Notes under the pieces: model-generated
Told to the model about the DNA's origin: nothing
The model's input: the letters and a program-made list of their open reading frames with translations, nothing else
Databases searched by the model: none
Shown here: positions 2,099 through 63,453 of the stretch, one piece after another
Layout of the letters: every line of letters begins with the position of its first letter
Position numbering within the stretch: position 1 is the first letter of the stretch
Assembly: GCA_018662365.1 (NCBI GenBank)
Contig: JABJGH010000066.1
Coordinates: 1-64,000, forward strand
From: Chloroflexota bacterium
GTDB taxonomy: Bacteria > Chloroflexota > Anaerolineae > Anaerolineales > UBA11579
Length of the DNA stretch: 64,000 bases
Direction: 5' to 3'
Translations under genes and position numbers: made by a program

Positions 2099-3484
2099 AT
2101 GACGCATACCCACTTAATTGGCATCGGAGGCACCGGGCTTTCAGCCATCGCTCAAGTTCTTTTGGAACGCGGCGAGGTTGTCAGTGGTTCTGACCGCCAA
2201 TCATCTCCTCAGTCCGAAAGCGTTCAGGCTGCAGGAGCTAAAGTGACCATCGGCCATGCTGCAGAAAATGTGACAGGTGCAGATATGGTATTGCGTTCTT
2301 CTGCTGTGCCCGATGACAATGTGGAAGTCCAAGTTGCTTTGGCAGCAAATATCCCAGTCGTAAAAAGAATTGATTATTTTGGAGATTTTCTTTCCGACAA
2401 AAATACCATCGCCATCGCGGGCTCTCACGGAAAAACAACCACGTCAGCAATGGTGGCATGGATGCTCACCGATCTCGAAATCGCCCCTGGCTTTATTGTC
2501 GGTGGAGAAGTAGAGAATTTAGGCAAGAATGCCACCGCGGGCAATAGTAAATATTTTGTCATCGAAGCCGATGAATATGATTATATGTTTTGGGGTATAT
2601 CTCCCGAAATCGCAGTTGTGACCAATATTGAGCATGATCATCCCGACTGCTTCCCCACCAAAGAAATATACGCCACCGCTTTCGAGGGTTTTGCAGACCG
2701 AATTACAAAATCTGGTGTTTTGATCCTTTGCCTTGACGACCCAGGGGCTAGAGGTTTATCAGCCTATGCCAAGGAAAAAGGCATCATGGTGCTCAGTTAT
2801 AGCATTGAGAATGATCAGGCAGATTATTTCGCCAATAACTATTCCCCAGTTCCTCTTGCGGGTTATACCTTTGATGTAAACAAAGGAAATCAAAAATTAA
2901 CTACTGCTTCTCTGCAAGTTCCCGGAAAGCATAATGTGCTAAACGCATTGGCAGCCCTGATCATCGCGGACATAATCGGCCTCGATTTAATATCTGTCGC
3001 CGAATCTTTATCAAAATTTACTGGCGCCGGTCGCCGCTTTGACATATTAGGAGAAGCCTCTTCCATTCTCATCATCGACGATTATGGACATCACCCCACC
3101 GAGATCAAGGCAACGCTCTCTGCGACGAAAGTCCGATACCCAAACCGAAGAATTTGGGCAGTTTGGCAGCCGCATACTTTTTCACGCACCCTTGAACTTC
3201 TCGAGGCTTTCGGCAATTCTTTTGTGGATGCGGATCAAGTCGTGATCACCAAGGTGTATGCAGCAAGGGAAGAAGCTCCTGCCACCTATAGCCCCGAAAA
3301 ATTAATTTCTGCAATAGACCATGAAAACGTCTTTTATGCAGATACCCATCCCTTAGCAACAAATTATTTGACCCAAAATACGTCACCAGAGGACGTGGTA
3401 ATCGTATTTTCAGCTGGAGACGCCACTGAAATCAGTGCCCAGTTATTAGATAACTTGCAATTAGGAGAACAGATCAATGAATAA
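2099..3484 (+). CDS. murC: UDP-N-acetylmuramate--L-alanine ligase MurC
   Basis: ATP-dependent cytoplasmic ligase adding L-Ala to UDP-MurNAc, the first amino acid of the stem peptide. 461 residues, full length. N-terminal Rossmann segment HLIGIGGTGLSAIA, then the ATP loop GSHGKTTTSAM (about residue 107), the central motif VIEADEYDYMF, NIEHDHPD, and the C-terminal ligase motif DDYGHHPTEI. AGGAG at 2084-2088, overlapping the upstream stop codon, fixes ATG 2099. The gene overlaps murB by eight bases. Confidence 0.97.
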   Translation: MTHTHLIGIGGTGLSAIAQVLLERGEVVSGSDRQSSPQSESVQAAGAKVTIGHAAENVTGADMVLRSSAVPDDNVEVQVALAANIPVVKRIDYFGDFLSDKNTIAIAGSHGKTTTSAMVAWMLTDLEIAPGFIVGGEVENLGKNATAGNSKYFVIEADEYDYMFWGISPEIAVVTNIEHDHPDCFPTKEIYATAFEGFADRITKSGVLILCLDDPGARGLSAYAKEKGIMVLSYSIENDQADYFANNYSPVPLAGYTFDVNKGNQKLTTASLQVPGKHNVLNALAALIIADIIGLDLISVAESLSKFTGAGRRFDILGEASSILIIDDYGHHPTEIKATLSATKVRYPNRRIWAVWQPHTFSRTLELLEAFGNSFVDADQVVITKVYAAREEAPATYSPEKLISAIDHENVFYADTHPLATNYLTQNTSPEDVVIVFSAGDATEISAQLLDNLQLGEQINE

Positions 3485-4412
3485 TCTAATATCTGATCTC
3501 CAAAAAGAAAAACTTATAAATACTTTTGGTGAGTATTTAATTGAGAATGCCCCCCTCGCCAAGTTTAGCTCTGCAAGATTGGGTGGCTATGCAGATTTCA
3601 TGCTTACTGCACATTCTGCCTTTTATTTGGAAAAAATGGTGACTTTTTTATGGGAAGAAGAGATTCCCTTCCACATTTTAGGTGGTGGCTCGAATATCCT
3701 CATCAGCGATGCAGGTGTTCGCCAACTTGTCATTCTCAATAAGGCGAAAAAGCTTGCTTTCAATGAAGATGATCAGGAATTACCCACCGTTTGGGCTGAA
3801 TCAGGCACTAATTTTGGGTCACTGGCCCGTCAGGCTGCCCAAAAGGGATTTAGTGGTCTTGAATGGGCAGCAGGCATCCCAGGAACCCTCGGCGGAGCGA
3901 TTTTCGGGAACGCTGGGGCACATGGCAAGGACATGTCAAACAATTTAAAGTTGGCAGAAGTCTTGCAACTAGAAGAGGGAAGGAAATTATGGTCAGTGAA
4001 CCAGATGGGTTTCACTTACCGAAATAGCACTTTAAAAACTGAATCTGGTAAATATATCGTTCTTTCTGCAACTTTAAATTTAGAACCTGGAAAACCAGAA
4101 GAAATCCAAGAAAAAATGGAAGAATACCTCCAATTTAGAAGAAGAACACAACCACCCGGCGCAAGTATGGGCTCGATGTTCAAGAACCCCGCTGGCGATC
4201 ATGCAGGTCGCTTGATTGAGGTAGCAGGATTGAAGGGTTCCCGTATAGGAGATGCCCAAATAAGCGAGTTACATGCCAACTTCTTCATCAACCATGGTGA
4301 AGCAAAGGCCCAAGATGTCTATCAATTGATCCAATTAGCCCAGGAAAAGGTAAAAGATCAATTTGATGTGCTTTTGGAACTGGAAATTCAACTCTTTGGA
4401 GACTGGAAATAA
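3477..4412 (+). CDS. murB: UDP-N-acetylenolpyruvoylglucosamine reductase MurB
   Basis: FAD enzyme that uses NADPH to reduce UDP-GlcNAc-enolpyruvate to UDP-MurNAc. 311 residues, the shorter type II size. FAD-binding HILGGGSNILIS (near residue 63), PGTLGGAIFGNAGAHG, the active-site FTYRNS arginine region, GSMFKNP carrying the proton-donor Ser, and the C-terminal LELEIQLFG with the conserved Glu. The ATG lies inside the end of murC (eight-base overlap) with AGGAG at 3463-3467, so it is coupled to murC. Confidence 0.97.
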   Translation: MNNLISDLQKEKLINTFGEYLIENAPLAKFSSARLGGYADFMLTAHSAFYLEKMVTFLWEEEIPFHILGGGSNILISDAGVRQLVILNKAKKLAFNEDDQELPTVWAESGTNFGSLARQAAQKGFSGLEWAAGIPGTLGGAIFGNAGAHGKDMSNNLKLAEVLQLEEGRKLWSVNQMGFTYRNSTLKTESGKYIVLSATLNLEPGKPEEIQEKMEEYLQFRRRTQPPGASMGSMFKNPAGDHAGRLIEVAGLKGSRIGDAQISELHANFFINHGEAKAQDVYQLIQLAQEKVKDQFDVLLELEIQLFGDWK

Positions 4413-4417
4413 TCCCT

Positions 4418-5533
4418 ATGTCGAAACTAAAAATAAGAATTCTTGTGCTTTTTGGTGGTCGTTCGGGAGAACATGCTGTTTCACTCATGTCAGCTAAATT
4501 TGTACTCGGACAGCTAGACCCAGAAAGATACGAAGTCACCAAAATAGGAATTACTCGACACGGTGATTGGTTTGTTGGAGATCATGTTCTGGATGATTTG
4601 ATCGAGGAAGAATTTAGCAAATTGTCTGCAGTTACGATATTCCCAAATCCATCTCGCCCTGGTCTACATCAAATTGATGACGATCACCGACTAAATTTCG
4701 TGACAGATTTTGATGTGGTTTTCCCAGTGCTTCATGGCACCTTTGGGGAAGATGGCACCCTTCAAGGATTGCTTGAAATGGCCGATGTGGCTTATGTTGG
4801 CCCAGGTGTCGTCGGTTCTGCGGTCGGCATGGATAAGGCCATCTTTGCAGATGTGATGACAGCAAATGACATCCCGATCGTGAAGACTGTCCTCGTTCTA
4901 CGATCTGAGATCGAGAGCGATCCAGTTAATGTTGTAAAGAGAATGGAAGAAGCTTTAGGAGAATATCCTTATTTCGTCAAACCTGCCAATTTAGGATCAT
5001 CGGTGGGGATCAGCAAGTCGAAAAATTCTTCAGACCTGATTGAAGGCCTGATGGATGCCGCCCAATATGATCGACGCATTGTCGTTCAAAAAGGACACGA
5101 AGTAAGAGAGATCGAAGTAAGCATAATGGGAAATGATCAGCCATTGGCTTCAGTATGTGGAGAAGTTCTCCCTGCTGAAGAGTTTTACAGCTACGAAGCA
5201 AAATATCATGATGACAGTTCTCGTACTGTTATTCCTGCTGATATATCTGAGGAATTAAGTGATCGAATTAGAGTATTAGCGATCAAAGCCTATAAGGCCT
5301 GTGATCTTGCCGGATTGACCAGAGTAGATTTCTTTATTGATAAAGACAATGATGAAATTTACATCAATGAATTAAATACCATCCCTGGTTTTACCCAGAT
5401 CAGCATGTACCCCCTGCTTTGGGAAGCCAGTGGTGTAGGTAACGAAGAATTAGTAGACCGATTGGTGATGTTTGCCCTCGAGCGAAAAGCCGAGAGAGAT
5501 GCCACCAAACGAACATTTAGGAGAAATGAATAA
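4418..5533 (+). CDS. ddl: D-alanine--D-alanine ligase
   Basis: ATP-grasp ligase forming D-Ala-D-Ala for the end of the peptidoglycan stem. 371 residues. N-terminal FGGRSGEHAVSLMSA, the MDKAIF segment, the ATP-grasp loop GSSVGISKS, the substrate loop EEFYSYEAKY whose Tyr is typical of D-Ala rather than D-lactate specificity, and the metal-binding end RVDFFID...INELNTIPGFT. The first substrate motif reads EHAVS instead of the commoner EHEVS. Five bases after murB; overlaps ftsQ. Confidence 0.96.
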   Translation: MSKLKIRILVLFGGRSGEHAVSLMSAKFVLGQLDPERYEVTKIGITRHGDWFVGDHVLDDLIEEEFSKLSAVTIFPNPSRPGLHQIDDDHRLNFVTDFDVVFPVLHGTFGEDGTLQGLLEMADVAYVGPGVVGSAVGMDKAIFADVMTANDIPIVKTVLVLRSEIESDPVNVVKRMEEALGEYPYFVKPANLGSSVGISKSKNSSDLIEGLMDAAQYDRRIVVQKGHEVREIEVSIMGNDQPLASVCGEVLPAEEFYSYEAKYHDDSSRTVIPADISEELSDRIRVLAIKAYKACDLAGLTRVDFFIDKDNDEIYINELNTIPGFTQISMYPLLWEASGVGNEELVDRLVMFALERKAERDATKRTFRRNE

Positions 5534-6503
5534 CCGCATGACTGCCACAGAACGCCGCTCGGACGATGTTCGAGCCAAGCGAAATCGGCGAAAACAACAA
5601 TCAGAGCCGAAACGAAAAAATAAAAAGCGATCATCCCGAAGCAATCGGTCGATGCCGCCAACTATTACGCGTAATAAAAGCATGGCACATGCACCACAAG
5701 GAAAAACGAGCCGAAAATTAGCTCGAAAAAAATATAACGTCGCCCTTAAACAACCAGGTGCAGAAGTTCGCCTACCCGCCCTTCCCCAGATCCAAAGCGG
5801 ATGGCGTTTGATATCCGCGGTTTTTGCTGTTGCGATGCTATGGGCGATCAATATGGTTTGGACCTCCAATAATTTCAAAGTGAAAGAATTAGAAATTATT
5901 GGATTAGAACGCTTAGAAAGTAGCGAGATCAGTCAATTCCTGGGCTTGCGCAACCAATCCGTATTTAGTTTGGATCCCGCACAGATTACAAACTCGCTAG
6001 AACAGAACTTTAAATCATTAAAAAATATTCAGGTAACTTTAGGCTTGCCAAGCCTTGTGAGTATAGAACTGGAAGAAAGAATTCCTCAACTTTCCTGGAC
6101 ACAAGCTGGCATCACAGTCTGGGTAGATGAGCAGGGGATTGCATTTGAACCTTCCGGTGAACTCGAAAGCATCGTAAATGTAGAAGCCAACCAGGCGCCA
6201 TTATCAAACGAGGAAACTGAAGAAGGACAGGTTCAACTGTTAACGCAGGAAATGGTACAAGCAATTTTGAGTTTATCCGCCCTAGCTCCTGAAGACACAA
6301 CGATTGTCTATGACCCCGAGCACGGCTTGGGCTGGTCAGATTCTCGTGGTTGGATCGCCTATTTTGGTCCAGATAGTTCAGATATGGATCTAAGAATATC
6401 TATGTATCAAGATACTGTGGATTATTTGACCGATAAAGGGACGCTACCAGCAATCATTAGCTTGGAATATATCCACCAACCTTATTATCGCTTGCAACCT
6501 TAA
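5526..6503 (+). CDS. ftsQ: Cell division protein FtsQ/DivIB
   Basis: Bitopic membrane protein that links early and late divisome parts. From ATG 5526 it has about 325 residues: an Arg/Lys-rich cytoplasmic tail of ~85 residues, one membrane segment (LISAVFAVAMLWAINMVW), a POTRA domain (VKELEIIGLERLESSEISQFL...) and a beta domain (ELEERIPQLSWTQAGITVWVDEQGIAF). The AGGAG at 5519-5523 is only two bases before ATG 5526; ATG 5538 and an upstream ATG 5472 are alternatives. ATG 5526 overlaps the ddl stop in the same way murB overlaps murC. The family call is firm, the exact start is not. Confidence 0.9.
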   Translation: MNNRMTATERRSDDVRAKRNRRKQQSEPKRKNKKRSSRSNRSMPPTITRNKSMAHAPQGKTSRKLARKKYNVALKQPGAEVRLPALPQIQSGWRLISAVFAVAMLWAINMVWTSNNFKVKELEIIGLERLESSEISQFLGLRNQSVFSLDPAQITNSLEQNFKSLKNIQVTLGLPSLVSIELEERIPQLSWTQAGITVWVDEQGIAFEPSGELESIVNVEANQAPLSNEETEEGQVQLLTQEMVQAILSLSALAPEDTTIVYDPEHGLGWSDSRGWIAYFGPDSSDMDLRISMYQDTVDYLTDKGTLPAIISLEYIHQPYYRLQP

Positions 6504-6543: not shown

Positions 6544-7779
6544 ATGAGTGAAACGATCGTAGTCGGCATTGATATAGGCACCACCAAGGTTTGTACTTTG
6601 GTTGCCCGGATGGAAAGTAAAGGCCAAATGAGGATTTTGGGTGTGGGGATCGAACCCGCCCAAGGTATCCGCAAGGGTACTGTTGTCGACTTGGCCGCTG
6701 CTGGAAAGGCAATCGCCTTATCGATCGATAAAGCAGAAAGAAGTTCTGGTTTAGAGATCACTTCCGCCCTAGTCAGTTTAGCTGGCTCGCATGTTTCTTC
6801 GATCAATAGTCGCGGTGTGGCAAGTGTCTCCCGCCAGGTGGTCGATGAAAACGATATTAACCGAGCGATGGATGCCGCACGAGCTGTAGCCATTCCTCAT
6901 AATCGCGAAGTAATCCATGTCATTCAGCGTGGGTTTACCTTGGATGGTCAAGACGGCATTCGGGTTCCAAATGGCATGCATGGCTATCGCATGGAAGTCG
7001 AAGCCCATATCATCACTGCCGCTGCTTCCACCGTGGACAACATCCGCCAAGTTGTTGGCAGCTCAGGTGTAGATGCCCATCAATTTGTACTCAACCCATT
7101 GGCCTCTGCTGAAGTTGTCCTTACGGATACGGAGCGGGAAATGGGCGTAGTGGTTTGTGATATTGGCGGCGGCACCTCTGACATGGCCCTCTTCATCGAA
7201 GGGGATGTTTGGCATACGATGGTATTAGCGGTTGGCGGGAACCATATCACTTCAGATATTGCTCACGGTTTACGATTGCCATTCTCAAAGGCAGAGGAAA
7301 TTAAGATCAATCATGGGCATGCGCTAACAAGTGAGATCGGGGCAGATGAAACTTTCCCTGTCAAAGCTTTTGGCGAAGAACAACCGGTCAATATTAGCAG
7401 ACGAGAATTGACCCATATTATTGAAGCCAGAGTTGAAGAAATTTTCAGCTTGATGATGCAAGAGATCAAACGATCAGGCTACGACGGCTTATTGCCCGCA
7501 GGTTTAGTGCTTACCGGCGGCACAAGTCAATTGCCGGGAATTAGAAAATTAGCTAGTGAAGTAATGGGTTTGCCAGTGCGCTTGGCCCGCCCCGAAAACC
7601 TTATAGGAATGGTGGACAAGTTACACTCCCCTGCCTATTCAACCAGTATTGGTTTGGTCCATTGGGCCTTGCTGATGAATGAAATCGATCCCTTTGCAAT
7701 TAGTGAATTGGGAGCATCCCAAAATAGTGTTAAAAATTGGGACTGGTTTAGAGATGTACTAAAACGGTTTCTACCGTAA
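6544..7779 (+). CDS. ftsA: Cell division protein FtsA
   Basis: Actin-fold ATPase that tethers FtsZ to the membrane. 411 residues. Phosphate 1 motif GIDIGTTKVCTLVA near the N-terminus, phosphate 2 VVCDIGGGTSDMALF (about residue 200), and the adenosine motif GLVLTGGTSQLPGI. The SHS2/1C insertion follows the first motif (RILGVGIEPAQGIRKG...). The C-terminus NWDWFRDVLKRFL is an amphipathic helix of the membrane-targeting type. It lies 40 bases after ftsQ and 85 before ftsZ. Confidence 0.97.
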   Translation: MSETIVVGIDIGTTKVCTLVARMESKGQMRILGVGIEPAQGIRKGTVVDLAAAGKAIALSIDKAERSSGLEITSALVSLAGSHVSSINSRGVASVSRQVVDENDINRAMDAARAVAIPHNREVIHVIQRGFTLDGQDGIRVPNGMHGYRMEVEAHIITAAASTVDNIRQVVGSSGVDAHQFVLNPLASAEVVLTDTEREMGVVVCDIGGGTSDMALFIEGDVWHTMVLAVGGNHITSDIAHGLRLPFSKAEEIKINHGHALTSEIGADETFPVKAFGEEQPVNISRRELTHIIEARVEEIFSLMMQEIKRSGYDGLLPAGLVLTGGTSQLPGIRKLASEVMGLPVRLARPENLIGMVDKLHSPAYSTSIGLVHWALLMNEIDPFAISELGASQNSVKNWDWFRDVLKRFLP

Positions 7780-13279: not shown

Positions 13280-16200
13280 TTAGAAAAGCCCTTCGTCTCT
13301 TGACCTTTGAACTGCTTCCTCTAAAGTGAGTGCTTTTCCATTTTCTCTGGCTGCAGAATAAACAACCTTTGAAACTGCTACCTTAAGCCTAGCTTTCAAT
13401 TTGATTGTAATCGGTAGACGAGACATCCATGCGCTGGTTGAACGGTTGGATAAAGCTACATAAAGAAGTTCAGTGGCTTTTACTGGGTGACCGTCATGAT
13501 CAAAAATTAGAGCAAGATTTAATAATAACATTGCATGGGACCATAACCCACTTAGTTTTTCACCCTTTCTGGGGAGATAATCCCTTGCTCTTTCCATATT
13601 TCCCACTCCGGCTTCGGCCAAAAAATGATGACGACGAATACCTGAAAGAAAATCTTGACGAGTTGTAGGTAATGCTTCTAATTTTCTGAGGGTAGATTTC
13701 AAACCTTCGTAATCCTCATCAAAGGCGTCATAAATCATTTTGACATAATAAACCCATCCACTGGTATTAATAATATTAATATCTTCGATGATTCCAAGGG
13801 CTTCATTGAGATATTTTTGGCCCTTTTCACGATGCCCAACAGCTATTAGATGTATTGCAAGACTTACATTGCTCCAGGCAACCCCCTGTTTATCCCCCAA
13901 TTTCCGGCTAAGCAAATTATTTTCTTTCAAGTAAGCAAGACTTTCTTCATATTTCCCTCTCTCCTCCAAATTGGAAGATATATTATTGTTGGTCAAAATA
14001 ATTCCATATAAATCCCCAAGCTGTTGACTTATTTCTAGACAGCGTAAATTATAGTTAAGGGACTTATCATGCTCGCCAAGGATAGAATAAGCATATCCAA
14101 TCCCAAATAAATTAGGTGCCTGATTATATAAATCTTCTAAATCAATAAAAATCCCCAATGATTCTTTGAAAACAGAAAGGGCTTCTTCAATTTCCGAAGT
14201 ATCTAATAAAGCATAGCCCAAGGTTAATTTTGCTAATCCAACTCCTTGAAAATCGCCAGCATTTTCTAAAGTCTTCATTACAGTTTTGATGTCATCTATT
14301 GCCTTGGGACGTTTTTCCATAGATCTAATAATTCTTTCATAAAAAGTTACTGCCCGGGCTTGGAGGATGGGGGCTGTGTGGTCATGCTCCAATATGTTTG
14401 CAAAAAGCTCGACCGCAGTAAAGGTTTGATCTCGAATAAAACAATAAATATAAGCACTTTGCAACCCATTGAGCAATAGATCTGTTAGGCCTCGTTCAAT
14501 TGCCCAAGACCAAGCGGCACGTACATTTTCAAAATCCTCTTCAATATCATTTAGGGCATTAATCTGGTCCTTACCCTTTAGATCATTTTCGCGTTCTGCA
14601 AATGCATTCAAATAGTATCTTGCATGATTATCGTGGATTTCTTCCACGTCATCGAGATTTGTAAGGATTTCTTCAGAAAACTGCCGAATTAACTCATGTA
14701 TCTCGAATCGCCCTGATTTTTGATCTCGATGGAGTAGTGATTTGTTTACTAGCCCATTTAACAATCGGATGGAAATATTACTTATCGATTGGGCTGCATT
14801 ACGCGTGCAGCCTCCATGAAAGACGCTCATGCGGGCTAGGCCGTCTCGTTCCTCATCGTTTAGTAAACGCCAGGAATAATCAAACACAGCGCGCATACTG
14901 CGTTGTCGTTCAGGGAGATCACGGCGTTCGGATTCGAGGAAATCCATACTCGCTTGAATTTCTTCGGCAATTTCTTTGACAGTTAGGGTAGCTACCCAGG
15001 CTGCAGCCAACAAAATACCCAGTGGAACGCCTTGAACGAGGTGACAGACGCGGGCGACATAGCTGAGATTTTCTTCGGTGATCTCAAAGGCCACTCGGGT
15101 CCGAGTTGCAGATTGCATAAATAGTTGTACCGCAGAATATCGGAGAGCGTCTTGGGGGGTCTCCCATTTTGGAAGTTCCATGCCATCAATGACTAGCAAG
15201 TTTTCTCCATCAATATTTAGTTTTTCGCGCGAGGTGACAAGGACGGTCAATTGTGGGGCGGCATGAATGATCTCAGCAAGAATATTGGCACCGGCGATGA
15301 TATGTTCGTAATTATCCATGATGAGGAACAGATTTTTATTAGTAAGGTAGGACACTATCTGTGCCCTGTAATCCCCATCGGAATGGAATTTATAGGTGGC
15401 GGCTTCTGCAATTGCTTCGGGAATTTTTTCTGGATCGCCATATTTATCGAGACCGACGAAGAGGACACCATCTTCAAAATTTTTGGCTTGAAAAAACCCA
15501 GTTTCGATTGCGAGGCGAGTTTTACCCATTCCACCAGGGGCCATAAGGGTGATTAAGCGGATTGTTGGATCACTGATCATTCGTGTTAACTCATTCATTT
15601 CCTCTTCACGGCCAACAAAAGGGGTTGATTGAGCTAGCAGGTTGTTTCGGGAACCTGGGGTTGTGCGTTGGGGGGGAGAAAAAACTGAATGTAGTTCAAA
15701 CTCTGTTGGGTCTTCCTGCTCTATTGATTTAGGCTTTGGGGGTTGAGACGAGATGTCGATGTTCTTGATCATGGCTTCGATCTCGGCACCGACAAGACGG
15801 ATGGAGGGGATGCGGGCATCATGGTTTTTTTCTAACATGCGGTAGACGAGGTCATTGAGGTTATCGGGGATATCCGGCCGAATCTCTTGGAGGTCGGGTG
15901 TGGAATCATGGAGGATGGCAGTAATGACCTGAACAATACTGTCACCCGTGAAGGGGTTTTGACCGGTGAGTAATTCGAAGATCAGGACACCAAAGGACCA
16001 GATGTCAGACCGGGCATCGACTCTCTTGCCGAGGCAGGCTTCAGGGCTGAGATAGCCGTAGGTGCCGAGTAGGACGCCTTCTTGCGTGAGGTCAGAATCT
16101 CCAATAATGTGGGCAACACCAAAATCTGTAAGGCGTGGGGTATCGTTTTGATCAATGAGGACATTGGCAGGTTTTATGTCGCGATGGATGATGTCTAGAA

Positions 16201-16576
16201 AGTGGGAGCGGGTGAGGGCATCAGCGAGTTGAATGGCAATTTGCAATACCTGATCTAGGGGAAGGCCGGAAGGAGACTTTGAAAGGAGGTCTTTTAAATC
16301 TCCCCCATCGACGTATTCCAAAATTAGGTAGTGATTGCTATCCTGTTCGATGACGTCAATTAGAGTGACGATGTTGGGGTGGTTGAGTTCTCGCAGTACT
16401 TGTCCTTCTCGCCTAAATCTATCGAGGAAATCTAGGGTGGGATCGAGCAAACCGGGTTTAAGATGTTTGACAGCAACAGTTTCTCCGGATTGGGAGTCGG
16501 TGGCTCTATATACATCACCCATGGCCCCAGTACCTATCGATTCTCCTAGCTCGTATCGGTTTGAGAGTACTTTCAT
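13280..16576 (-). CDS. Ser/Thr kinase fused to a STAND (NB-ARC-like) ATPase with TPR repeats
   Basis: 1098-residue signalling protein. Residues ~8-270 form a Hanks-type kinase: GTGAMGDVY, the catalytic Lys in VAVKHLK, HRDIKPANV, DFG and SPEA. After a Pro-rich linker, residues ~315-640 form a STAND module: FVGREEE, Walker A APGGMGKTR (~344), a Walker B-like LFLIMDNYEHI, VTSREKL, then a winged-helix part. The C-terminal ~400 residues are helical TPR-like repeats, as expected for ligand or partner sensing. No membrane segment is seen. Such fusions are common in Chloroflexota and Actinobacteria as regulators; STAND proteins also act in phage defence. It stands alone, so the target is unknown. Confidence 0.9.
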   Translation of the reverse strand: MKVLSNRYELGESIGTGAMGDVYRATDSQSGETVAVKHLKPGLLDPTLDFLDRFRREGQVLRELNHPNIVTLIDVIEQDSNHYLILEYVDGGDLKDLLSKSPSGLPLDQVLQIAIQLADALTRSHFLDIIHRDIKPANVLIDQNDTPRLTDFGVAHIIGDSDLTQEGVLLGTYGYLSPEACLGKRVDARSDIWSFGVLIFELLTGQNPFTGDSIVQVITAILHDSTPDLQEIRPDIPDNLNDLVYRMLEKNHDARIPSIRLVGAEIEAMIKNIDISSQPPKPKSIEQEDPTEFELHSVFSPPQRTTPGSRNNLLAQSTPFVGREEEMNELTRMISDPTIRLITLMAPGGMGKTRLAIETGFFQAKNFEDGVLFVGLDKYGDPEKIPEAIAEAATYKFHSDGDYRAQIVSYLTNKNLFLIMDNYEHIIAGANILAEIIHAAPQLTVLVTSREKLNIDGENLLVIDGMELPKWETPQDALRYSAVQLFMQSATRTRVAFEITEENLSYVARVCHLVQGVPLGILLAAAWVATLTVKEIAEEIQASMDFLESERRDLPERQRSMRAVFDYSWRLLNDEERDGLARMSVFHGGCTRNAAQSISNISIRLLNGLVNKSLLHRDQKSGRFEIHELIRQFSEEILTNLDDVEEIHDNHARYYLNAFAERENDLKGKDQINALNDIEEDFENVRAAWSWAIERGLTDLLLNGLQSAYIYCFIRDQTFTAVELFANILEHDHTAPILQARAVTFYERIIRSMEKRPKAIDDIKTVMKTLENAGDFQGVGLAKLTLGYALLDTSEIEEALSVFKESLGIFIDLEDLYNQAPNLFGIGYAYSILGEHDKSLNYNLRCLEISQQLGDLYGIILTNNNISSNLEERGKYEESLAYLKENNLLSRKLGDKQGVAWSNVSLAIHLIAVGHREKGQKYLNEALGIIEDINIINTSGWVYYVKMIYDAFDEDYEGLKSTLRKLEALPTTRQDFLSGIRRHHFLAEAGVGNMERARDYLPRKGEKLSGLWSHAMLLLNLALIFDHDGHPVKATELLYVALSNRSTSAWMSRLPITIKLKARLKVAVSKVVYSAARENGKALTLEEAVQRSRDEGLF

Positions 16577-16791: not shown

Positions 16792-16797
16792 TATAAT
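16792..16797 (+). promoter_or_regulatory. -10 element of the broken hydrolase copy
   Basis: A perfect TATAAT lies 29 bp before the ATG of the pseudogene; the intact copy has one at 20193-20198. No convincing -35 is present. It may now drive the unknown gene at 16945. Confidence 0.5.
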
Positions 16798-16825
16798 ATT
16801 TTGAGATGGAAATATGGAGGAAAAT

Positions 16826-16932
16826 ATGACCGAAGAAAAAACTTTTAGAGATTTGGTGAATACGTTTTTTGAAACTCACGGGAAGCCAGAGCAGTAGCAG
16901 GCGGCTTATGATGCGTTGGGGGGCGGGGAGGC
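16826..16932 (+). pseudogene. 5' fragment of an alpha/beta hydrolase gene, duplicate of 20253-21224
   Basis: ATG 16826 with GGAGG upstream opens a frame whose first 22 residues (MTEEKTFRDLVNTFFETHGKPE) match the intact gene at 20253. At codon 24 a TAG replaces a Gln codon; similarity continues to about codon 36 (AAYDAL..GGEA) and then stops, running into unrelated sequence before the gene at 16945. Most differences are third-position changes, so the copy diverged under selection before it was broken or came from a relative. No full domain remains. Confidence 0.85.
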
Positions 16933-16944
16933 AAAATAATAATT

Positions 16945-17694
16945 ATGGAAGAAAATAAGATTTCGGGTAATGATTTTATCGCAATGGGACATTTTTTAAT
17001 GCGTCCCCGAAGACCAGAAAAAAACAGAATATATAGAGATCCGGGCATATATTCATTGGCTGAATGTCATACTGAAAAAATTCCTTCCCTCTATCATCTT
17101 GGTCTTTGGTGGGAGGATCCTAAATCAGACAATAAACACCCCAAACCCAATAATAAATATATACAAGACTTAAAATCGGAACTGGGTTTTTCTGAAAAAG
17201 AATTTTTAGCTTTTGAAAAAGATTTAGCGAATGAAAGGTTTGTAAAAAAGACCATTCATATACATGACAATTTTTTGAATATATCAGCCGCCCAAGAATT
17301 TTCGGCAAAATATATGGATCTTGAAATTTTCGAGGACGTTAAATTAATTGGCGCTGGAATTTCCATAGAAGACCACAAAACCTTCATCGATAGTGAGCCG
17401 TATAATAACAGTGGCGTTGATGTCCGCGCAAAATCAGCTGTTAAATTGTCACAGAAGGGAGTATTTAGAGGTTTTGAAATTACTGATTACCTTGATCTTT
17501 TCCATTCTTTCTACTGTTATCCTCAAGCTGAATTAGAAATTGAAGAACAAAAAATTCAACTTAATGAAAATGGGATGTTTGAAACCTATAATCAGGCAAA
17601 GGAATTTTTACTTCACATGAATAAGGCTACTATTGGGCCATATTGGGAAGGAAATTTATATATCATTGCTCAATTTGAATACCCCAGAAAATAA
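16945..17694 (+). CDS. Protein of unknown function, 249 residues
   Basis: I do not recognise this protein. It is hydrophilic, AT-rich in codon use compared with the hydrolase genes on either side, without signal peptide or membrane segment. Visible features are an aromatic-rich start (LYHLGLWWEDPKS), a mixed alpha/beta body, and the end MNKATIGPYWEGNLYIIAQFEYPRK. It begins 12 bases after the hydrolase fragment ends and has only weak ribosome-binding sequence (GGGAGGC near 16926), so it may be translated from the fragment's expression signals. The composition suggests transfer from elsewhere. Confidence 0.6.
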   Translation: MEENKISGNDFIAMGHFLMRPRRPEKNRIYRDPGIYSLAECHTEKIPSLYHLGLWWEDPKSDNKHPKPNNKYIQDLKSELGFSEKEFLAFEKDLANERFVKKTIHIHDNFLNISAAQEFSAKYMDLEIFEDVKLIGAGISIEDHKTFIDSEPYNNSGVDVRAKSAVKLSQKGVFRGFEITDYLDLFHSFYCYPQAELEIEEQKIQLNENGMFETYNQAKEFLLHMNKATIGPYWEGNLYIIAQFEYPRK

Positions 17695-17843
17695 AAAATC
17701 GTACCCTGGGATTATTCTTAATCTATTTCGTAATTTTTTGAAATTGCTGAGTTTGGAGATGTGAACCCTGGATGGTGGAAAAGTGAGGGAGATGGTAGCG
17801 GAGGTAGCCCAGTAATAGCCTTTGTGAAAAGAAAATTACACAA

Positions 17844-18036
17844 TATAATACCTATTAATCAGTAAAGAAAAGGAAGGGATGAAAATATGAGCGAACGAAA
17901 GAAGAAACCTACAGAAAGAAAAGCTCCCTCGGTTGGATTACACCAAACCGATATGGGCGGCAAAGAAATTGTAAAAATCAATAAGAAAAATATAGACACC
18001 AAACGCAAAATTACCCCAAAGAAGAAACGACCATAG
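17844..18036 (+). CDS. Small basic protein, 49 residues, with its -10 element
   Basis: The coding part is 17887-18036. It opens with ATG after AAGGAAGGG, a good ribosome-binding site, and TATAAT at 17844-17849 gives a plausible -10. The product (MSERKKKPTERKAPSVGLHQ to ...ITPKKKRP) is about one third Lys/Arg with a conserved-looking centre QTDMGGKEIVKINKK. It could bind nucleic acid or be a ribosome-associated peptide; I cannot assign a family. It is short, so the call rests on the ribosome-binding site and promoter. Confidence 0.5.
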
Positions 18037-18420
18037 GATAAATTGGTTCAATTTCTGAAAAAATTGGTTGCAAGAGAAAGACGATCACCTGGGGCATGGT
18101 CTTAATTCGGCACGGGGAATGGTCACAATTCCAGCGGTCGTCGACTAGAGGGGGTAAAATTAAATATACCTCCAAATTGGTTAATATAAATTTGTCAAAT
18201 TAATAGATAAACGGGAGAGTGGGATGAGTTAAGGGGGTGAGAGATTTAGGTGTTTTGGTTGGGGGAAATCTAGCAGAAATTAAAACAGTAGAACTGTCTA
18301 TGGAATGATGAGGGAGATTGTATAATAGTGTTATCGATAAAGGGATCGTTGGTCAGGAAATCACTAAAAATATAACCTATTTGACAATAGTAACTATTTC
18401 AAGAAGTAGTAAGAATTTTT
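18037..18420. other. Gene-free stretch before the sulfatase-like gene
   Basis: No ORF of note. It contains TATAAT at 18321-18326 without a clear -35, and TTGACA at 18381-18386 without a clear -10. Two T-rich, purine-rich segments look like decayed intergenic DNA. Confidence 0.4.
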
Positions 18421-18537
18421 ATGAAAAATACTCATGATAAATATTCTGTTTCCAACCCTTTAGGTGAATTCAAATTGATAGATGAAGATGGAAAGGCGAT
18501 GAAATCGAATATTGCAAGGGATGGGTCTGCTAAGTGA
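18421..18537 (+). CDS. 38-residue ORF coupled to the sulfatase-like gene
   Basis: ATG 18421 opens a short hydrophilic peptide (MKNTHDKYSVSNPLGEFKLI to ...ARDGSAK) whose TGA stop overlaps the GTG start of the next gene by three bases (GTGA). The next gene has no ribosome-binding site of its own, so reading this ORF may be needed to translate it. No homologue recognised; it may be a leader or a true small protein. Confidence 0.4.
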   Translation: MKNTHDKYSVSNPLGEFKLIDEDGKAMKSNIARDGSAK

Positions 18538-20075
18538 AAAAATCTTGGATAGCCTACCCTTATATATTTGCATTAGCCTCTCTCCTTTTTCTGTATACCG
18601 TAACATCAGATATTGTATCTCCTCTTCAATTGCTCCGGCCCCTGGTAGTATTTTGGGCACTTCTTGTGCTGCTACATATTTTGATGAAATCGGTTGGGAT
18701 CGATAAGAATTGGTCGGCGCTGATGTTAGGCGTCTTTGTATTGGGTATTTTCTCAACACGTCTGTTTTTCGTTATCGCGGGATCAATTTCGATTGTTAGC
18801 TGTTTACTGTGGTGGCTAATCTTAAAAATTCGCAAACTAAGCGTGAAGGTGAATCAGATTGCCTTTATACTGAACGCAATATCTGTTTTTCTTGTGATCG
18901 TATTTAGTTTTTGGAATTATTTATTATTGAGGAAAGTGCCCTGGGGGGATTACCGACAGGCAGTAGAGCAATCGAGAAACGATTTGATAGCCAAGCCGAC
19001 TACTCCTGAAAATTTGCCTGATATTTACTACATCATATTGGATGGGTATGGGCGTGCTGACATATTGGATGAAATTTTTGAATACGACAACTCTGACTTC
19101 ATTGACTCTTTGAAGAGCAGAAGTTTCATTGTTCCTGAAGAAAGTCACTCGAATTATCCTAGAACGGTGTTGTCCGTGGCGTCAACACTTAACATGGATT
19201 ATATTTCGACACTAATACCGGGTCTTGAAGATAGTATTTTTTGGTGGTTGATGTCCCCCCTAATTGATCATAGTCAAACACGATTGATGTTGGAGAGCGT
19301 AGGATATCAAATGGTGTCGGTTGCTACAGATTGGAGCATTACAGATAACACATCTACAGACTTCTATTTTAAACCCAATCCAGTTAGCCTGAGCGACTTC
19401 GAAAACCATCTGGTTACTACGACCCCATTAGGGTTTCTTCTTTCCCCCGTAATAAGAAGTTTTTCTTCTCTTCCATCCTTTGATGGACACCGCGAATCGA
19501 TAGATTATAGTTTTAAGACTTTGTCCGATATCCCTGAAATGCCGGGGGCTAAATTTACTTTTTCGCATATTGTTACCCCCCACCCTCCGTTCGTATTCAA
19601 TGAGAATGGAAACTCCATTGATCCTGATTATAAATTTTGGTTTGCTGATGGAATTAGCTTTCCGGGAGGAAAAGAGGAATATCGAGATGGCTATGTGAAT
19701 CAATTGGTGTATACAAATACTCGAATATTGGAGGTTGTGGATGACATTATTGCAAGATCTAAAACGCCTCCGATAATCATCATACAGGCAGATCATGGAC
19801 CTGGATTATCTACAGATTTCAGTTCCTCAGATAACACGTGCCTGAAAGAACGATTCTCTGTGTTTGCAGCCTACTATCTACCCGGTGTGGACGCAGGAGA
19901 AGTACCTAATGATCTATCGGGAGTAAATATATTCAGGCTTATTCAAAATTTATACTTTGGGACAGATTTGCCGCTCTTGGAAAATAAATATTTGTATACT
20001 AAAGATGCATTGTTTATTTATCAGGCAGAGGACGTAACGTTTCGGGTAGAAGAGCCCTGTGAAATCTTTGAATGA
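18534..20075 (+). CDS. Membrane-bound sulfatase/phosphotransferase-like protein (alkaline phosphatase superfamily)
   Basis: 513 residues. Four N-terminal membrane segments (about 8-125) are followed by a large domain of the sulfatase/LTA synthase type. Metal-site motifs are DIYYIILDGYGR (~165), NYPRTVLSVASTLNMDYIS around the likely nucleophile Ser/Thr, HIVTPHPPF, and IIIIQADHGPG (~430). The topology resembles enzymes that move phospho-head-groups or cleave sulfate or phosphate esters on surface glycans or lipids. The substrate cannot be read from sequence. Start is GTG 18534, coupled to the preceding small ORF. Confidence 0.75.
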   Translation: MKKSWIAYPYIFALASLLFLYTVTSDIVSPLQLLRPLVVFWALLVLLHILMKSVGIDKNWSALMLGVFVLGIFSTRLFFVIAGSISIVSCLLWWLILKIRKLSVKVNQIAFILNAISVFLVIVFSFWNYLLLRKVPWGDYRQAVEQSRNDLIAKPTTPENLPDIYYIILDGYGRADILDEIFEYDNSDFIDSLKSRSFIVPEESHSNYPRTVLSVASTLNMDYISTLIPGLEDSIFWWLMSPLIDHSQTRLMLESVGYQMVSVATDWSITDNTSTDFYFKPNPVSLSDFENHLVTTTPLGFLLSPVIRSFSSLPSFDGHRESIDYSFKTLSDIPEMPGAKFTFSHIVTPHPPFVFNENGNSIDPDYKFWFADGISFPGGKEEYRDGYVNQLVYTNTRILEVVDDIIARSKTPPIIIIQADHGPGLSTDFSSSDNTCLKERFSVFAAYYLPGVDAGEVPNDLSGVNIFRLIQNLYFGTDLPLLENKYLYTKDALFIYQAEDVTFRVEEPCEIFE

Positions 20076-20252
20076 TGGTACCCGAGCATTTATGGGGAAA
20101 TATATTGGTTCCCTATTAAGAGTTTAGTGAATTGGAAGCTAGTTCTACTCTTCGGTAAAAGGGCGTAATGTGCTAGTAAACCCCCATATTGTTATAATGT
20201 TAAAGATTAAATTGAAATTTAACACGGCAGGTTTATGGTTGGAGGAATAATA

Positions 20253-21224
20253 ATGACCGAGGAAAAGACTTTTAGAGATTTAGTAAATACGTTTTTTGAA
20301 ACGCATGGGAAGCCAGAGCATCAGCAAGCGGCGTATGATGCACTGGAAGGAGGGGAAGCGCTGTATCCCGAATATGCCAGTCTGATCAATAGCTGGCGAT
20401 TTTGTGCCGCGGGATTGCTGAATAAGCCAGACCTGGCGATAGGGATCATGAAAGAGGGGTTAGATGCGGGGTATTGGTGGCATAAGGAGTTTTTGAAGAC
20501 GGACGAGGATCTAAAAAGCCTGCAAGAGCTGCCGGAATTCAACCGGATCGTAGAGATTGCCGACAAGAGGTATCAGGAGGCGATGGCGGCGGCAAAGGCA
20601 GTTGCATTGCCTCTGCGCCTACCTACCCCATCAAAGGAAGGATTCTCGCTCTTGTTGCCCCTTCATGGGAATAATGGGAATGCGAAAAAGTCGGTGGGAT
20701 TTTGGGAGAGCGCGGTGGATGAGGGCTGGATGACCGTTTTATTGCAGTCTTCAGAAATATTTTTTGACGCGGATTCATTTGTGTGGAACGATATGGAGAA
20801 GGCAGGGAAGGAAATCAAGGTACAGGTTGAGGAGTTTAAAGCGGTATATTCGATCAATGGGGAGCGGACGGTGATGGGCGGATTCTCGAAGGGGGCAGAG
20901 ATGGCTGTGTGGTTTACCTTGATGGAAATTCTGCCGATGAGGGGATTTATCGCGGTGAACCCGGGTGGACCGTATATTCAGGACATCACACTCTGGGAAC
21001 CGATCTTGGAGAATTGCGAACGGTTGAGCGAGATGCGGGGGGTATTCGTGGCGGGGGAGCATGACCCGAGTGTGGAACAGATCAGGGAATTGCATGGGCT
21101 GCTGGTGAGCAAGGGGATGGATTGTCAATTGGTGATCGCGCCGGAGATCGATCATGAATTTCCGGAGAATTTTGGAGAGATTTTGGCGGAGGGGTTGAAG
21201 TTTATAGGCAAAAACGATTCATAG
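20253..21224 (+). CDS. Alpha/beta hydrolase (esterase-like) with N-terminal helical domain
   Basis: 323 residues. Residues ~1-115 are helical and resemble a TPR-like region (EALYPEYASLINSWRFCAAGLLNKPD...). Residues ~130-323 are an alpha/beta hydrolase: LLPLHGNNGN as oxyanion region, GGFSKGAEMA (G-x-S-x-G, nucleophile Ser), VFVAGEHDPS (acid), and EIDHEFP (His). GGAGG at 20241-20245 fixes ATG 20253 rather than ATG 20235; TATAAT is at 20193-20198. Nothing marks it for export. The 5' end is duplicated at 16826. The substrate is unknown. Confidence 0.8.
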   Translation: MTEEKTFRDLVNTFFETHGKPEHQQAAYDALEGGEALYPEYASLINSWRFCAAGLLNKPDLAIGIMKEGLDAGYWWHKEFLKTDEDLKSLQELPEFNRIVEIADKRYQEAMAAAKAVALPLRLPTPSKEGFSLLLPLHGNNGNAKKSVGFWESAVDEGWMTVLLQSSEIFFDADSFVWNDMEKAGKEIKVQVEEFKAVYSINGERTVMGGFSKGAEMAVWFTLMEILPMRGFIAVNPGGPYIQDITLWEPILENCERLSEMRGVFVAGEHDPSVEQIRELHGLLVSKGMDCQLVIAPEIDHEFPENFGEILAEGLKFIGKNDS

Positions 21225-25518: not shown

Positions 25519-25944
25519 TTACTTCACCATGGATTGACATCTAACCAATATGTTTCTTTTGTGACTCCTTACGCGGTGTTCAAATAAATATATTCCCTGC
25601 CATGTGCCTAGAGAAAGTGTGCCATTATCAATCGGGATAGATAAGCTGGTATTCGTTAAAATGGCACGCATATGAGATGGGGAATCATCCGAACCTTCCA
25701 TGGTGTGTTGAAACCAGGATTGATTTTCGGGAACCAGTCGATCCATGAAGCCTTCTAAGTCTTTTCTTGCCGATGGGTCATAGCTTTCACTAATCACTAA
25801 AGAGGCGCTGGTGTGTTGAACAAAAAGATGGCAGATCCCTTCTTGGATACCCCATTTCTCAATTTGTGAGTGCAATTGGGGGGTCAGATCGTATAGACCC
25901 TTGCCATTGGTGGAGGTTTCAAGCGTTGTTTTATGCCAGGTCAT
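25519..25944 (-). CDS. YjbQ family protein (UPF0047)
   Basis: 141 residues, full length. Family motifs: HLFVQHTSASLVISESYDPSARKDLEGFMDRLVP, HTMEGSDDSPSHMRA, IPIDNGTLSLGTWQGIYLFEHR. The conserved His, Glu and Asp form a metal site. Family members can supply a thiamine phosphate synthase-like side activity, but the physiological reaction is not established. Convergent with the MATE gene, nine bases apart. Confidence 0.92.
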   Translation of the reverse strand: MTWHKTTLETSTNGKGLYDLTPQLHSQIEKWGIQEGICHLFVQHTSASLVISESYDPSARKDLEGFMDRLVPENQSWFQHTMEGSDDSPSHMRAILTNTSLSIPIDNGTLSLGTWQGIYLFEHRVRSHKRNILVRCQSMVK

Positions 25945-27178: not shown

Positions 27179-27355
27179 GCATATACCTCTGATAATTTAG
27201 TAACAATTTAATGGATATCGATGATGTTTGTGGTCAAAAAAGTTATATCATGATTTTACTGATGAAACGGGTAACCCGACCCTTGCATATTGATGGAAGG
27301 GAATTAAAGGAATACAATACTTCTAAGGAAAAATGAAAATTTGAGGAGGATCGTA

Positions 27356-28210
27356 ATGAGCTCACAAAAAATTGCTATCGTTACAGACAGTTCCGCATAT
27401 ATTCCTAAAGAAGTAATGGCAGGTTTGAATATTCACGTCATCCCCCTGTGGATGATCTGGGATGATGAAAAGTTTCGAGATGGGGTGGATATTGACCCGG
27501 AGAGTTTTTATAAACGGTTATCCAACTCAAAAACAATCCCTACCAGTTCACAGCCCTCTGCCGGGGAGTTTATTGAGTTCTTTAAAAAGGTGGCAGAAAA
27601 TAATGATGCCATTGTGGCGGTGTTGGTATCTTCAAAGCTAAGCGGCACGATTGCAAGCGCATTGGCAGCCCAAAAAGATTTACCAGAAATCCCGATAGAA
27701 ATTGTGGATACCTATAATGTTTCAATGGGGTTGGGATTCCCCGTTTTGGCTGCTGCAAAGGCAGTTGAGGCTGGGAAAACGGTGGAGGAAATAGTTTCTA
27801 TCGCTGAAGGGGTGAGCAAGGAGATGAGTTTTCTCTTTGCAGTGGACACTCTGGAGTTTTTACGGAAAGGTGGACGAATTGGAGGGGCAAAGGCTTTGTT
27901 GGGAACTGCTTTGAGAATCAAACCAATTTTACATTTTGAGGATGGGAGGATCGAACCCTTGATGCAGATTCGCACAAAGAAAAAAGCGCTGAAAGGATTG
28001 CTGGATATTGCAGAAAGCCGCTTAGATGGACGAAAGATGGCAGAAGTAGCGGTGATCGACATTGATGCGGATAAAGAAGGTGGTCAAGTTGCAAAAATGG
28101 TCGAGAAACGATTTGGAATGAGCAAGGTGATTAGAGCTGGAGTAAGCCCAGTGGTTGGGACACACGCGGGACCGGGGGCGGTTGGGCTGATTTTTTATCC
28201 AGAAGAATAA
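27356..28210 (+). CDS. DegV family protein (fatty acid-binding)
   Basis: 284 residues. Family motifs: VTDSSAYIPKEV at the start, TIPTSSQPSAGEF, VLVSSKLSGTIASALAA, FLRKGGRIGGAKALLGTALRIKPIL, and THAGPGAVGLIFY. DegV/FakB proteins bind a fatty acid and present it to a kinase for phosphorylation; FakA is not in this window. The start is ATG 27356, with GAGGAGG at 27343-27349; a TTG further up overlaps that site and is rejected. Confidence 0.95.
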   Translation: MSSQKIAIVTDSSAYIPKEVMAGLNIHVIPLWMIWDDEKFRDGVDIDPESFYKRLSNSKTIPTSSQPSAGEFIEFFKKVAENNDAIVAVLVSSKLSGTIASALAAQKDLPEIPIEIVDTYNVSMGLGFPVLAAAKAVEAGKTVEEIVSIAEGVSKEMSFLFAVDTLEFLRKGGRIGGAKALLGTALRIKPILHFEDGRIEPLMQIRTKKKALKGLLDIAESRLDGRKMAEVAVIDIDADKEGGQVAKMVEKRFGMSKVIRAGVSPVVGTHAGPGAVGLIFYPEE

Positions 28211-28644: not shown

Positions 28645-30036
28645 TTAACCTAGATCGCCGTGAATTTTGCCACGGGTTGTGTCAATGCCGTATTCTGGCA
28701 TATCCAGTTTGTACCAATCTTCTGGATCTTTCATTGGTTGACCCAATGTTTCCCAATTTGGTGTGTAGAGGAAGTCATCCAAAGTTCGTAATGTGGAATT
28801 GAGGACAGGTAAATTACCTGCAGCCCAACCTTGCAACTTGTGTAATCCAGCTAAGTTTTTCTCACTGAATGGGCAATATGCAAAACAGATTCCACAACCA
28901 GTTCCGACTTCGTACCAGTATGAGCGGCATTTCACGCCATCATCGTACCAAGCCTTGATTCCAGGATTGTTCCATTCACCAGTGGTTTCCCAGCTTGGTT
29001 CTTCATCCATGGAAAGAGCTTTACTTGGGCACATTTCCGCACATTTCTTACAGGTTCGGCAGAAATTCATGAGGCCAGCATCGATCGGTTTTGTTGGGGC
29101 GATATCCAAATTCGTAAGAAGTTTGAATACGCGGACAACAGGTCCATACTCTGGAGTGATGAGGCGGTTGTAGCGAGCCATTTCACCCAAACCAGCCATG
29201 ACAGCCATACCAGGAGCGGTTCCCAAAGCATTGCGGCGATATTCGCCAGGTGCTTGGTAGCCAAGGGTCTTGAGGAACATTTGGGTTCGAGCCTGGACTA
29301 ATCCACCAATCTCATAACCCATGCTGGAAACCGATCCACCCAATTCTGTGGGAGCGCGGCGCCAAAGCTCACGGCTCATTTGAACTGTGAATACAATCGC
29401 AGTTCGGCAGTCTTGAGGAAGATAGCGATGAGTTTCTGTTTCTGTTGGTTCCGAATGAGCGCTAGAGTATTCAATGATCTTGCGGTCGCCATCATTGGCA
29501 TAAAGCAATTTTTCTGTTGTACCAGGTTCAAGCTTTACAAAGCCTACAGAGGAAGCACCATAATAACGCATTGCAGCTGTTACAAGTTCTGCAGCTTCTT
29601 CGGGGGTTCCTTTCCATTTGGAAACGCCACGATCTTCTGGATTGAAACGGCCCTCGGGGCCGATGAACTGTGATTCTGCTAAAGAAAGATTAGCAAATCC
29701 ATGTCCCCAACCAGCAGCAACCGCGTGAGCTTTGAGATCCCAACCTGGGGTTCCTTTTTCCAATCTGCTTTGCTCATTAGTTTTGTCAATTTCTTTTAGT
29801 TTGTCTAATTTGTCGCCATAGAATTTTGGATTAAAACCAGTGATTGAAGCATCATGACGTTTCATTACCTCCCAGTCAATTTCGACTGTGGGTTTATCAA
29901 TTTCTTTAATCCAACCAGGGCGTTTATTGGAGGGCAGTTTTTCATCAGCCCCCAACAAAAATGGGCCAGTAGCTGCGGCGGTGCCGAGTACACCCATTTC
30001 TTTAAAAAATTCTCGTCGTGTTAAGTTCTCAGGCAT
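28645..30036 (-). CDS. rdhA: Reductive dehalogenase catalytic subunit RdhA
   Basis: 463 residues, the size of respiratory RdhA enzymes, which remove halogens from organohalides using a corrinoid and two 4Fe-4S clusters. A Tat signal TRREFFKEMGVLGTAAATG is at the N-terminus. TPEEAAELVTAAMRYYGASSVGFVKL is the conserved nitroreductase-like corrinoid-domain region. Clusters: CRTCKKCAEMCP (about 325) and CRSYW...GCGICFAYCPF (about 375-390). AGGAGG precedes ATG 30036. The gene follows a pentahaem lipoprotein gene and precedes rdhB. No regulator of the usual MarR, CprK or two-component type is adjacent. The substrate cannot be told from sequence; marine and sediment relatives have unknown substrates. 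Confidence 0.95.
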   Translation of the reverse strand: MPENLTRREFFKEMGVLGTAAATGPFLLGADEKLPSNKRPGWIKEIDKPTVEIDWEVMKRHDASITGFNPKFYGDKLDKLKEIDKTNEQSRLEKGTPGWDLKAHAVAAGWGHGFANLSLAESQFIGPEGRFNPEDRGVSKWKGTPEEAAELVTAAMRYYGASSVGFVKLEPGTTEKLLYANDGDRKIIEYSSAHSEPTETETHRYLPQDCRTAIVFTVQMSRELWRRAPTELGGSVSSMGYEIGGLVQARTQMFLKTLGYQAPGEYRRNALGTAPGMAVMAGLGEMARYNRLITPEYGPVVRVFKLLTNLDIAPTKPIDAGLMNFCRTCKKCAEMCPSKALSMDEEPSWETTGEWNNPGIKAWYDDGVKCRSYWYEVGTGCGICFAYCPFSEKNLAGLHKLQGWAAGNLPVLNSTLRTLDDFLYTPNWETLGQPMKDPEDWYKLDMPEYGIDTTRGKIHGDLG

Positions 30037-30136: not shown

Positions 30137-30736
30137 TTAGTTCTTGGTCAATTCATAATCCTCATGGCATAACTCGCAACCTCCATCGAAGGTTTCATGC
30201 ATGGGATGACATACGATACAACGCACATCTGTTGTGTAATGGTAATCATGTGGATTGACAGGTTTGTAATTTCTAGTTAAGTCCGAAACAGCTCCGTATG
30301 AACCTCCATGACAATTTAAGCAAATTTGATCGGGTGGTGAAGTGAAATCCCTATTTGGGGGAAGGTTATGACAGCCGTGGCAATTTGGCAGAGGCACATC
30401 CTTATTCACTTCGTCTTCTTCTGTATGACAGTCGGCACAACTGGTGAGGACATGTTGATGCAAGCTATCTAAGCTGGTGGATGTATCCCAATTTGCTTCA
30501 ACTTCTTCCTCAGCTTTTGGGGTGAGAATATTTGTAAAAATTTCTCCGATATCCACTGGTTCACCATCGATATCCGTTTCTTCTTCAATATCGGAGACCG
30601 AAAGGAGACCGTTATCCTCTTCTTCTATGTTCTCTTCTACAGGTGTCGGTTCGGGTGGCTCTTCTCCACAGGCAACAATCAGAAGGCAACAAAGAAGGAG
30701 GGTAAAACAATTTCTCAGGGTTAATTTATTGATCAT
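30137..30736 (-). CDS. Pentahaem c-type cytochrome lipoprotein
   Basis: 199 residues. N-terminal signal with lipobox LIVAC (Cys ~23), then a very acidic Glu-rich linker of ~60 residues, then five CXXCH haem sites: CADCH, CHGCH, CLNCH, CIVCH and CELCH, plus extra His residues that can be distal ligands (HQHVLTS, NPHDYHYT). This is a surface-exposed electron carrier. It is the first gene of the unit with rdhA and rdhB, which makes it a candidate electron donor for the dehalogenase. This pairing is inferred from position only. Confidence 0.88.
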   Translation of the reverse strand: MINKLTLRNCFTLLLCCLLIVACGEEPPEPTPVEENIEEEDNGLLSVSDIEEETDIDGEPVDIGEIFTNILTPKAEEEVEANWDTSTSLDSLHQHVLTSCADCHTEEDEVNKDVPLPNCHGCHNLPPNRDFTSPPDQICLNCHGGSYGAVSDLTRNYKPVNPHDYHYTTDVRCIVCHPMHETFDGGCELCHEDYELTKN

Positions 30737-60963: not shown

Positions 60964-61172
60964 GGGGTCTCCTGTTTGTATTGCTTTTTTGACAAGATAA
61001 ACCTTCAATTTCTTTCGATAACCCTAATAACCAAAGAAATAAAAATCTATTATTAAACATCAGAAGATTTTTCAATATTTTAATTAGGTTAATTCCAATT
61101 TATAAAAAGTAAAATCATTAATTTTGAATATTAATTACTCTCGCAGAATCAAATATAGAAACCAAAATTTAT

Positions 61173-62651: not shown

Positions 62652-62805
62652 TAATTTCCCAGCTTAATAAATCTTATATGTTTAGATAATTTAGTGATTA
62701 TATTTGAATCATTGAGTTGAACCAACACTAAAATTTTCTTTTTAGTATTTTTATTTATATTGTTTATTCAATTATAAGGTGTTTCTAATGACAAAATATA
62801 TCAAA

Positions 62806-63321: not shown

Positions 63322-63453
63322 GGAATCTCCTATGAATATCAACATTCTGGCAGACTAAAGTCCAGAATTCTTTCGATAATTTATAAGTATAACCAACAAT
63401 ATGGAATAAAAATCACAACCTTAGTCAAATTCTTCAAATAACCCTAAAAATGT

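Follow-up and report, generated by a model that had tools for sequence, protein, structure and literature searches.

The window, meaning the whole stretch of 64,000 nucleotides that was analysed, contains a gene for an alpha/beta hydrolase (20253-21224) whose 5' end is found a second time upstream, with several other reading frames lying between the two copies. The features of this locus are as follows:

16815-16932, + strand: probable 5' relic of a hydrolase gene, comprising a ribosome-binding site followed by 36 codons, of which codon 24 is a TAG (16895-16897)
16932-16944, + strand: junction; similarity to the hydrolase stops at 16932 and the start codon of the orphan gene lies at 16945
16945-17694, + strand: orphan gene of 249 aa, recognised by the length of its ORF, with no relative found in the searches described below
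17887-18036, + strand: basic ORF of 49 aa with no relative in 60 other genomes, which may or may not be a gene
18421-18537, + strand: ORF of 38 aa with no relative in 60 other genomes, its stop overlapping the GTG at which the sulfatase-like gene starts
18534-20075, + strand: membrane sulfatase-like protein of 513 aa, with relatives encoded at four further sites of its own genome
20240-20359, + strand: 5' end of the intact hydrolase that matches the relic, as delimited by the repeat alignment
20253-21224, + strand: intact alpha/beta hydrolase of 323 aa with a PF22316 N-terminal domain, a relative of PDB 5f2h

For comparisons of codon usage, 51 ORFs were chosen from the ORF lists of the window and are referred to as the window genes. 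Among the other features of the window, the product of 13280-16576 (1098 aa) combines a serine/threonine kinase with tetratricopeptide repeats and an NB-ARC/AAA-like part. Many PADLOC kinase models are hit by the kinase domain, a match that is not specific. A reductive-dehalogenase-like domain with iron-sulfur clusters (PF13486, E 1.9e-23) is encoded at 28645-30036, adjoined by a multihaem cytochrome c3-like gene (30137-30736). At 60412-63345, two paralogous genes of a family that was not recognised (75% DNA identity over 476 columns) flank an AT-rich gene (61173-62651) with a CAP12/Pycsar-type TIR domain (PF10137, E 7e-26) and a match to the PADLOC candidate PDC-S35 (E 5e-18). From its domain content, this region is a possible anti-phage defence locus.

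The repeat and the truncated upstream copy

Positions 16826-16932 and 20253-20359 form a direct repeat of 107 nt with 85% identity, which was extended by blastn of the window against itself to 16815-16932 and 20240-20359 (85.0% over 120 columns, E 4.8e-30). The repeat holds a ribosome-binding site, TGGAGGAA, and 36 codons, and no third copy was found in a search of the whole genome (2.79 Mb in 66 contigs). The initial annotation had described the 5' part of the hydrolase gene as copied upstream together with its TATAAT; the repeat bears this out for the coding sequence and the ribosome-binding site, whereas the TATAAT lies outside it. The two hexamers are found at different distances from the ATG (16792-16797, 28 nt 5' of it; 20193-20198, 54 nt 5' of it) and the copies show no in-register alignment upstream of TGGAGGAA. 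The pair carries little meaning, since the DNA is AT-rich and 12 promoter-like sites were found in the region against 13.8 expected. An identical core common to both copies of the repeat is absent: identity is 85% overall, and near the 3' edge the longest stretch of exact identity measures 5 nt. The search for a shared motif pattern at the edges gave nothing above chance (10 found, 6.3 expected).

The upstream copy retains 36 of the 323 hydrolase codons. Its translation reads MTEEKTFRDLVNTFFETHGKPEQ up to the TAG, which is in frame at codon 24 and breaks this copy as had been claimed, and QAAYDALGGGEAK from there to a TAA after codon 37. When the copy was compared in frame with the intact gene over the 36 codons, 14 synonymous and three non-synonymous differences were found (pS 0.64, pN 0.035, dN/dS 0.025), with a bootstrap interval for pN/pS of 0-0.14; codon 37 was excluded from the calculation, as similarity ends there. 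The ratio of 14:3, set against only 3:13 and 2:14 in the two wrong reading frames, is that of a sequence which once was coding. Under neutrality, so few non-synonymous changes would have a probability of 8e-8 if the fragment had been neutral for the whole divergence, 0.048 for half of it and 0.55 for a quarter. Neutrality for the entire divergence is rejected and neutrality for half of it nearly so; the fragment therefore remained a coding sequence during the greater part of the divergence, though not necessarily throughout.

Conservation before the TAG (six synonymous differences to one non-synonymous) is matched by that of codons 25-36 behind it (8:1), which places the TAG and the decay late. 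Had the gene died so recently, the remaining 287 codons (37-323) should still be recognisable. No trace of them was detected downstream of the fragment by protein search, and the best local alignment for a 3' remnant scored 31, a value equalled by 9-22% of shuffles. This part of the gene was therefore removed by rearrangement and not eroded. The edge of the rearrangement lies at 16932/16933, 12 nt 5' of the orphan ATG, and some recombination must have produced this junction between codons 36 and 37.

With its homology to the intact gene, its in-frame stop and the loss of most of the gene, the fragment qualifies as a pseudogene; its 37 residues gave no match to PF22316. According to one published account, in-frame stops in bacterial genes need not equal the death of a gene (PMC7918605). 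Here, death is supported by the missing bulk of the gene besides the stop. Whatever the route by which it arose, 16815-16932 is probably the relic of some second hydrolase copy.

Genes between the copies and their occurrence in other genomes

The orphan is a real gene by the length of its ORF, which has a chance of 1.7e-9 at its own composition. Its GC content (0.339) is the fourth lowest of the 51 window genes and its codon usage fits the window. No relative was found in 60 other relatives or in 399 other genomes of the phylum; within the order, the best hit in 399 other genomes is a 41-residue match at E 0.0047 that contains internal stops and is not credible. There was no match in Pfam, NCBIfam or PADLOC and none in phage, viral and genome contig collections; the best values were E 0.19 with PHROGs, E 0.076 with PDB and E 0.7 for a single match with plasmids. 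Structure prediction from the single sequence gave a mean pLDDT of 33.4. The ATG of the orphan lies 47 nt beyond the TAG of the relic, and the gene may now be using the relic's upstream signals. It should also be noted that the orphan and the 49-aa ORF start in a context resembling that of the relic (ranked 7th and 2nd among 1326 pairs), a likeness that was set aside as one of ordinary purine-rich starts. Without relatives, the orphan is the part of the locus most worth a biochemist's time.

Further downstream, the 38-codon ORF and the sulfatase-like gene are possibly translationally coupled, as their overlap suggests. The protein of the latter is called only sulfatase-like because PF00884 (Sulfatase) scores 17.3 bits against a curated cut-off of 25. 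Of 61 genomes, 15 contain members of its family, and its own genome has five matches. All three features of the initial annotation are present between the copies, namely the unrecognised gene (16945-17694), the basic ORF of 49 residues (17887-18036) and the sulfatase-like gene (18534-20075), but that they are foreign was not demonstrated: the sulfatase-like protein has relatives elsewhere in the same genome, and the codon usage of the cargo is ordinary for the window. The most deviant codon usage of the 51 window genes is that of the intact hydrolase. Foreignness is therefore unreadable from composition, which marks the hydrolase if anything.

The first codons of the intact hydrolase gene also show the largest drop in GC3 (-0.234) among 50 of the 51 window genes, the 49-aa ORF being excluded as too short. 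G or C ends 15 of its first 36 codons, against a fraction of 0.634 in the rest (P 0.006). In the relic the figure is 19 of 36, which is no different from the remainder of the intact gene (P 0.13). When the position of the break was left free, the best was at codon 51 and was not significant (p 0.076).

PF22316 was found in the intact hydrolase with 57.4 bits (curated cut-off 27), and the match to the uncharacterised PDB 5f2h is nearly whole-length (E 3.5e-37). The hydrolase is present in 14 of 61 relatives and in 59 of 400 genomes of the order, its own genome counted; the sets drawn from the order and from the phylum, 400 genomes each, share members with one another and also with the 61 relatives. 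Some other genomes contain two or three genes of this family, and a second full-length member is encoded on contig 13 of the same genome. The one other genome searched from the same genus, 73% complete, lacks the hydrolase. The closest relatives are found in genomes G005 (52% identity) and G379 (46%). Their neighbourhoods have nothing in common with the window besides the hydrolase, except that G379 weakly matches ABC transporter genes situated far away from the hydrolase in the window. A match confined to the 5' part of the hydrolase was found in none of the other genomes (60 relatives, 399 order genomes), and the genome contig collection held no relative of the hydrolase. The gene in G005 (L004:1495-2454, minus strand) contains two in-frame TAA codons and seems to be decaying as well.

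The layout of the locus was found in no relative. Seven other genomes hold relatives of both the hydrolase and the sulfatase-like protein, never adjacent: they are on separate contigs in six and approximately 300 kb apart in G006. The flanking DoxX-like and ribonucleotide reductase genes, 9 kb apart in the window, are unlinked in 17 other family members with both; in three of these they share a contig, at a distance of at least 860 kb. No donor, empty site or intermediate was found in the genomes searched (61 relatives, order and phylum sets), where the unlinked flanking genes left no corresponding site to set beside that of the window.

Possible origins of the arrangement

No recombinase was found among the ORFs between the copies, and no integrase or transposase in the 45 of the 51 window genes that were scanned with Pfam (those outside the scan being 1552-2085, 3477-4412, 5472-6503, 6544-7779, 25519-25944 and 27341-28210). 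A second copy of the repeat end or of the 5' cargo was absent elsewhere in the genome. An integron-like reading, based on GTTRRRY motifs (nine in L001 against 5.4 expected), was dropped. The copies were also considered as the target-site duplication of a recent insertion, which was rejected: approximately 64% of synonymous and 3% of non-synonymous sites differ, so the copies diverged long ago as coding sequences. Of the insertion by recombination that had been proposed initially, the recombination stands, as it is needed for the codon 36/37 junction; the insertion is left with no recombinase, no identical core and no recent target-site duplication.

The reading that is tentatively preferred, although it is held to be somewhat short of probable, is an import together with a diverged allele, in which the orphan, the sulfatase-like gene and the intact hydrolase replaced the 3' part of the relic gene. 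The relic would then be what is left of a once full-length hydrolase (allele A), the diverged sister of the intact gene 20253-21224 (allele B), and the two alleles would have separated while both were functional, most likely in different lineages. A dN/dS as low as that found here is seen more often between orthologues than between duplicates, which would favour a separate-lineage origin of A and B. The imported stretch (orphan, sulfatase-like gene and allele B) may have substituted the 3' part of A in a single event, with its homologous side in the hydrolase and its illegitimate side at codon 36/37. The TAG would have arisen afterwards in a useless remnant, if truncation came before it as is suspected. 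The drop in GC3 in the first codons of B, with A resembling the rest of B, was counted for import; against it, a freely placed GC3 break is not significant, no donor was found, only 36 codons carry signal, and both the sulfatase-like family and the codon usage of the cargo are native-like.

The same picture would be given by an old in-place duplication followed by deletion, a serious candidate that is nevertheless rather doubtful. Here the hydrolase would have been duplicated long ago in the lineage with both copies in use, and a late deletion of upstream codons 37-323 would have put the upstream 5' end before the orphan; the intervening genes would already have been there and nothing would have been imported. 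This requires no donor and agrees with the native-like sulfatase-like family (five matches in the genome) and the unremarkable codon usage of the cargo. It is also consistent with the two or three hydrolase members of some genomes, with the second full-length one on contig 13 here, and with the presence in the window of another paralogous pair around a gene (60412-61008 and 62806-63345). On the other hand, near-saturated synonymous change with three non-synonymous differences in 36 codons implies long and strong selection on both duplicates, and two near-identical proteins seem a luxury in a family that is not universal (59/400 genomes). Import was ranked slightly above duplication with deletion, and an island targeting the 5' end well below.

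Such an island, now decayed, which targeted the 5' end of the hydrolase and restored the gene, is unlikely. Known 5'-end islands target widely conserved genes, whereas the hydrolase is sporadic (59/400 genomes). The lack of an integrase between the copies or in the 45 of 51 window genes scanned, the exact run of at most 5 nt near the 3' edge and the failure to find the end or the 5' cargo again at any other site of the genome also argue against it. The dip in GC3 over the first 36 codons of the intact gene would fit an element-borne 5' end, and there is a precedent of about 35 residues, beside the 36 duplicated codons with conserved protein found here: the published dusA island supplies a new promoter and N-terminus, its 5' coding sequence showing 61% identity across 35 residues (PMC8409611). 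A small island without a recombinase, which would restore an accessory hydrolase with an element-borne N-terminus (the protein of the host, not its codons) and leave the native 5' end as the relic, is a little less likely again.

It is very unlikely that the relic is still useful and under selection, as a 23-residue leader peptide or a regulatory region ahead of the orphan. The codons up to the TAG are strongly conserved (six synonymous, one non-synonymous) and the orphan ATG follows 47 nt past it, but the codons after the TAG are equally conserved (8:1), which a 23-residue leader does not explain, and the relic is present in no relative. Least likely of all is an assembly artefact in which hydrolase alleles of two strains were joined in one contig, since contig C12 runs for 90 kb, the junction lies outside any long exact repeat and the relic carries a stop, even though the genome is a draft of 66 contigs (93.95% complete, 1.74% contamination) and a divergence of 15% could be that between strains or species.

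Comparison with known systems

Homology-facilitated illegitimate recombination combines one homologous side with one illegitimate junction, and would yield exactly such a partial duplication; it differs here in that it was never observed as an event and that no donor is known. If the import with a sister allele is true, the locus would be a small fossil of illegitimate recombination whose age the codon changes bracket. The hydrolase itself is alike to the PDB 5f2h / PF22316 alpha/beta hydrolase family over near full length.

Islands that insert at the 5' end of dusA or prfC and rebuild the gene (PMC8409611) are alike in a displaced native 5' end at one side, an intact gene with an alternative 5' end at the other and a length of about 35-36 codons. 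The present locus differs from them in having no integrase, no identical core and a sporadic target gene.

Overall the locus looks ordinary, like the leftover of a broken hydrolase allele. In annotation, the fragment is best labelled a relic instead of a short gene or the end of a mobile element. With bacterial truncated gene relics beside an intact homologue it shares the truncation, the nonsense codon and the nearby intact copy, and there is no essential difference from these; the removed part here borders an orphan gene.
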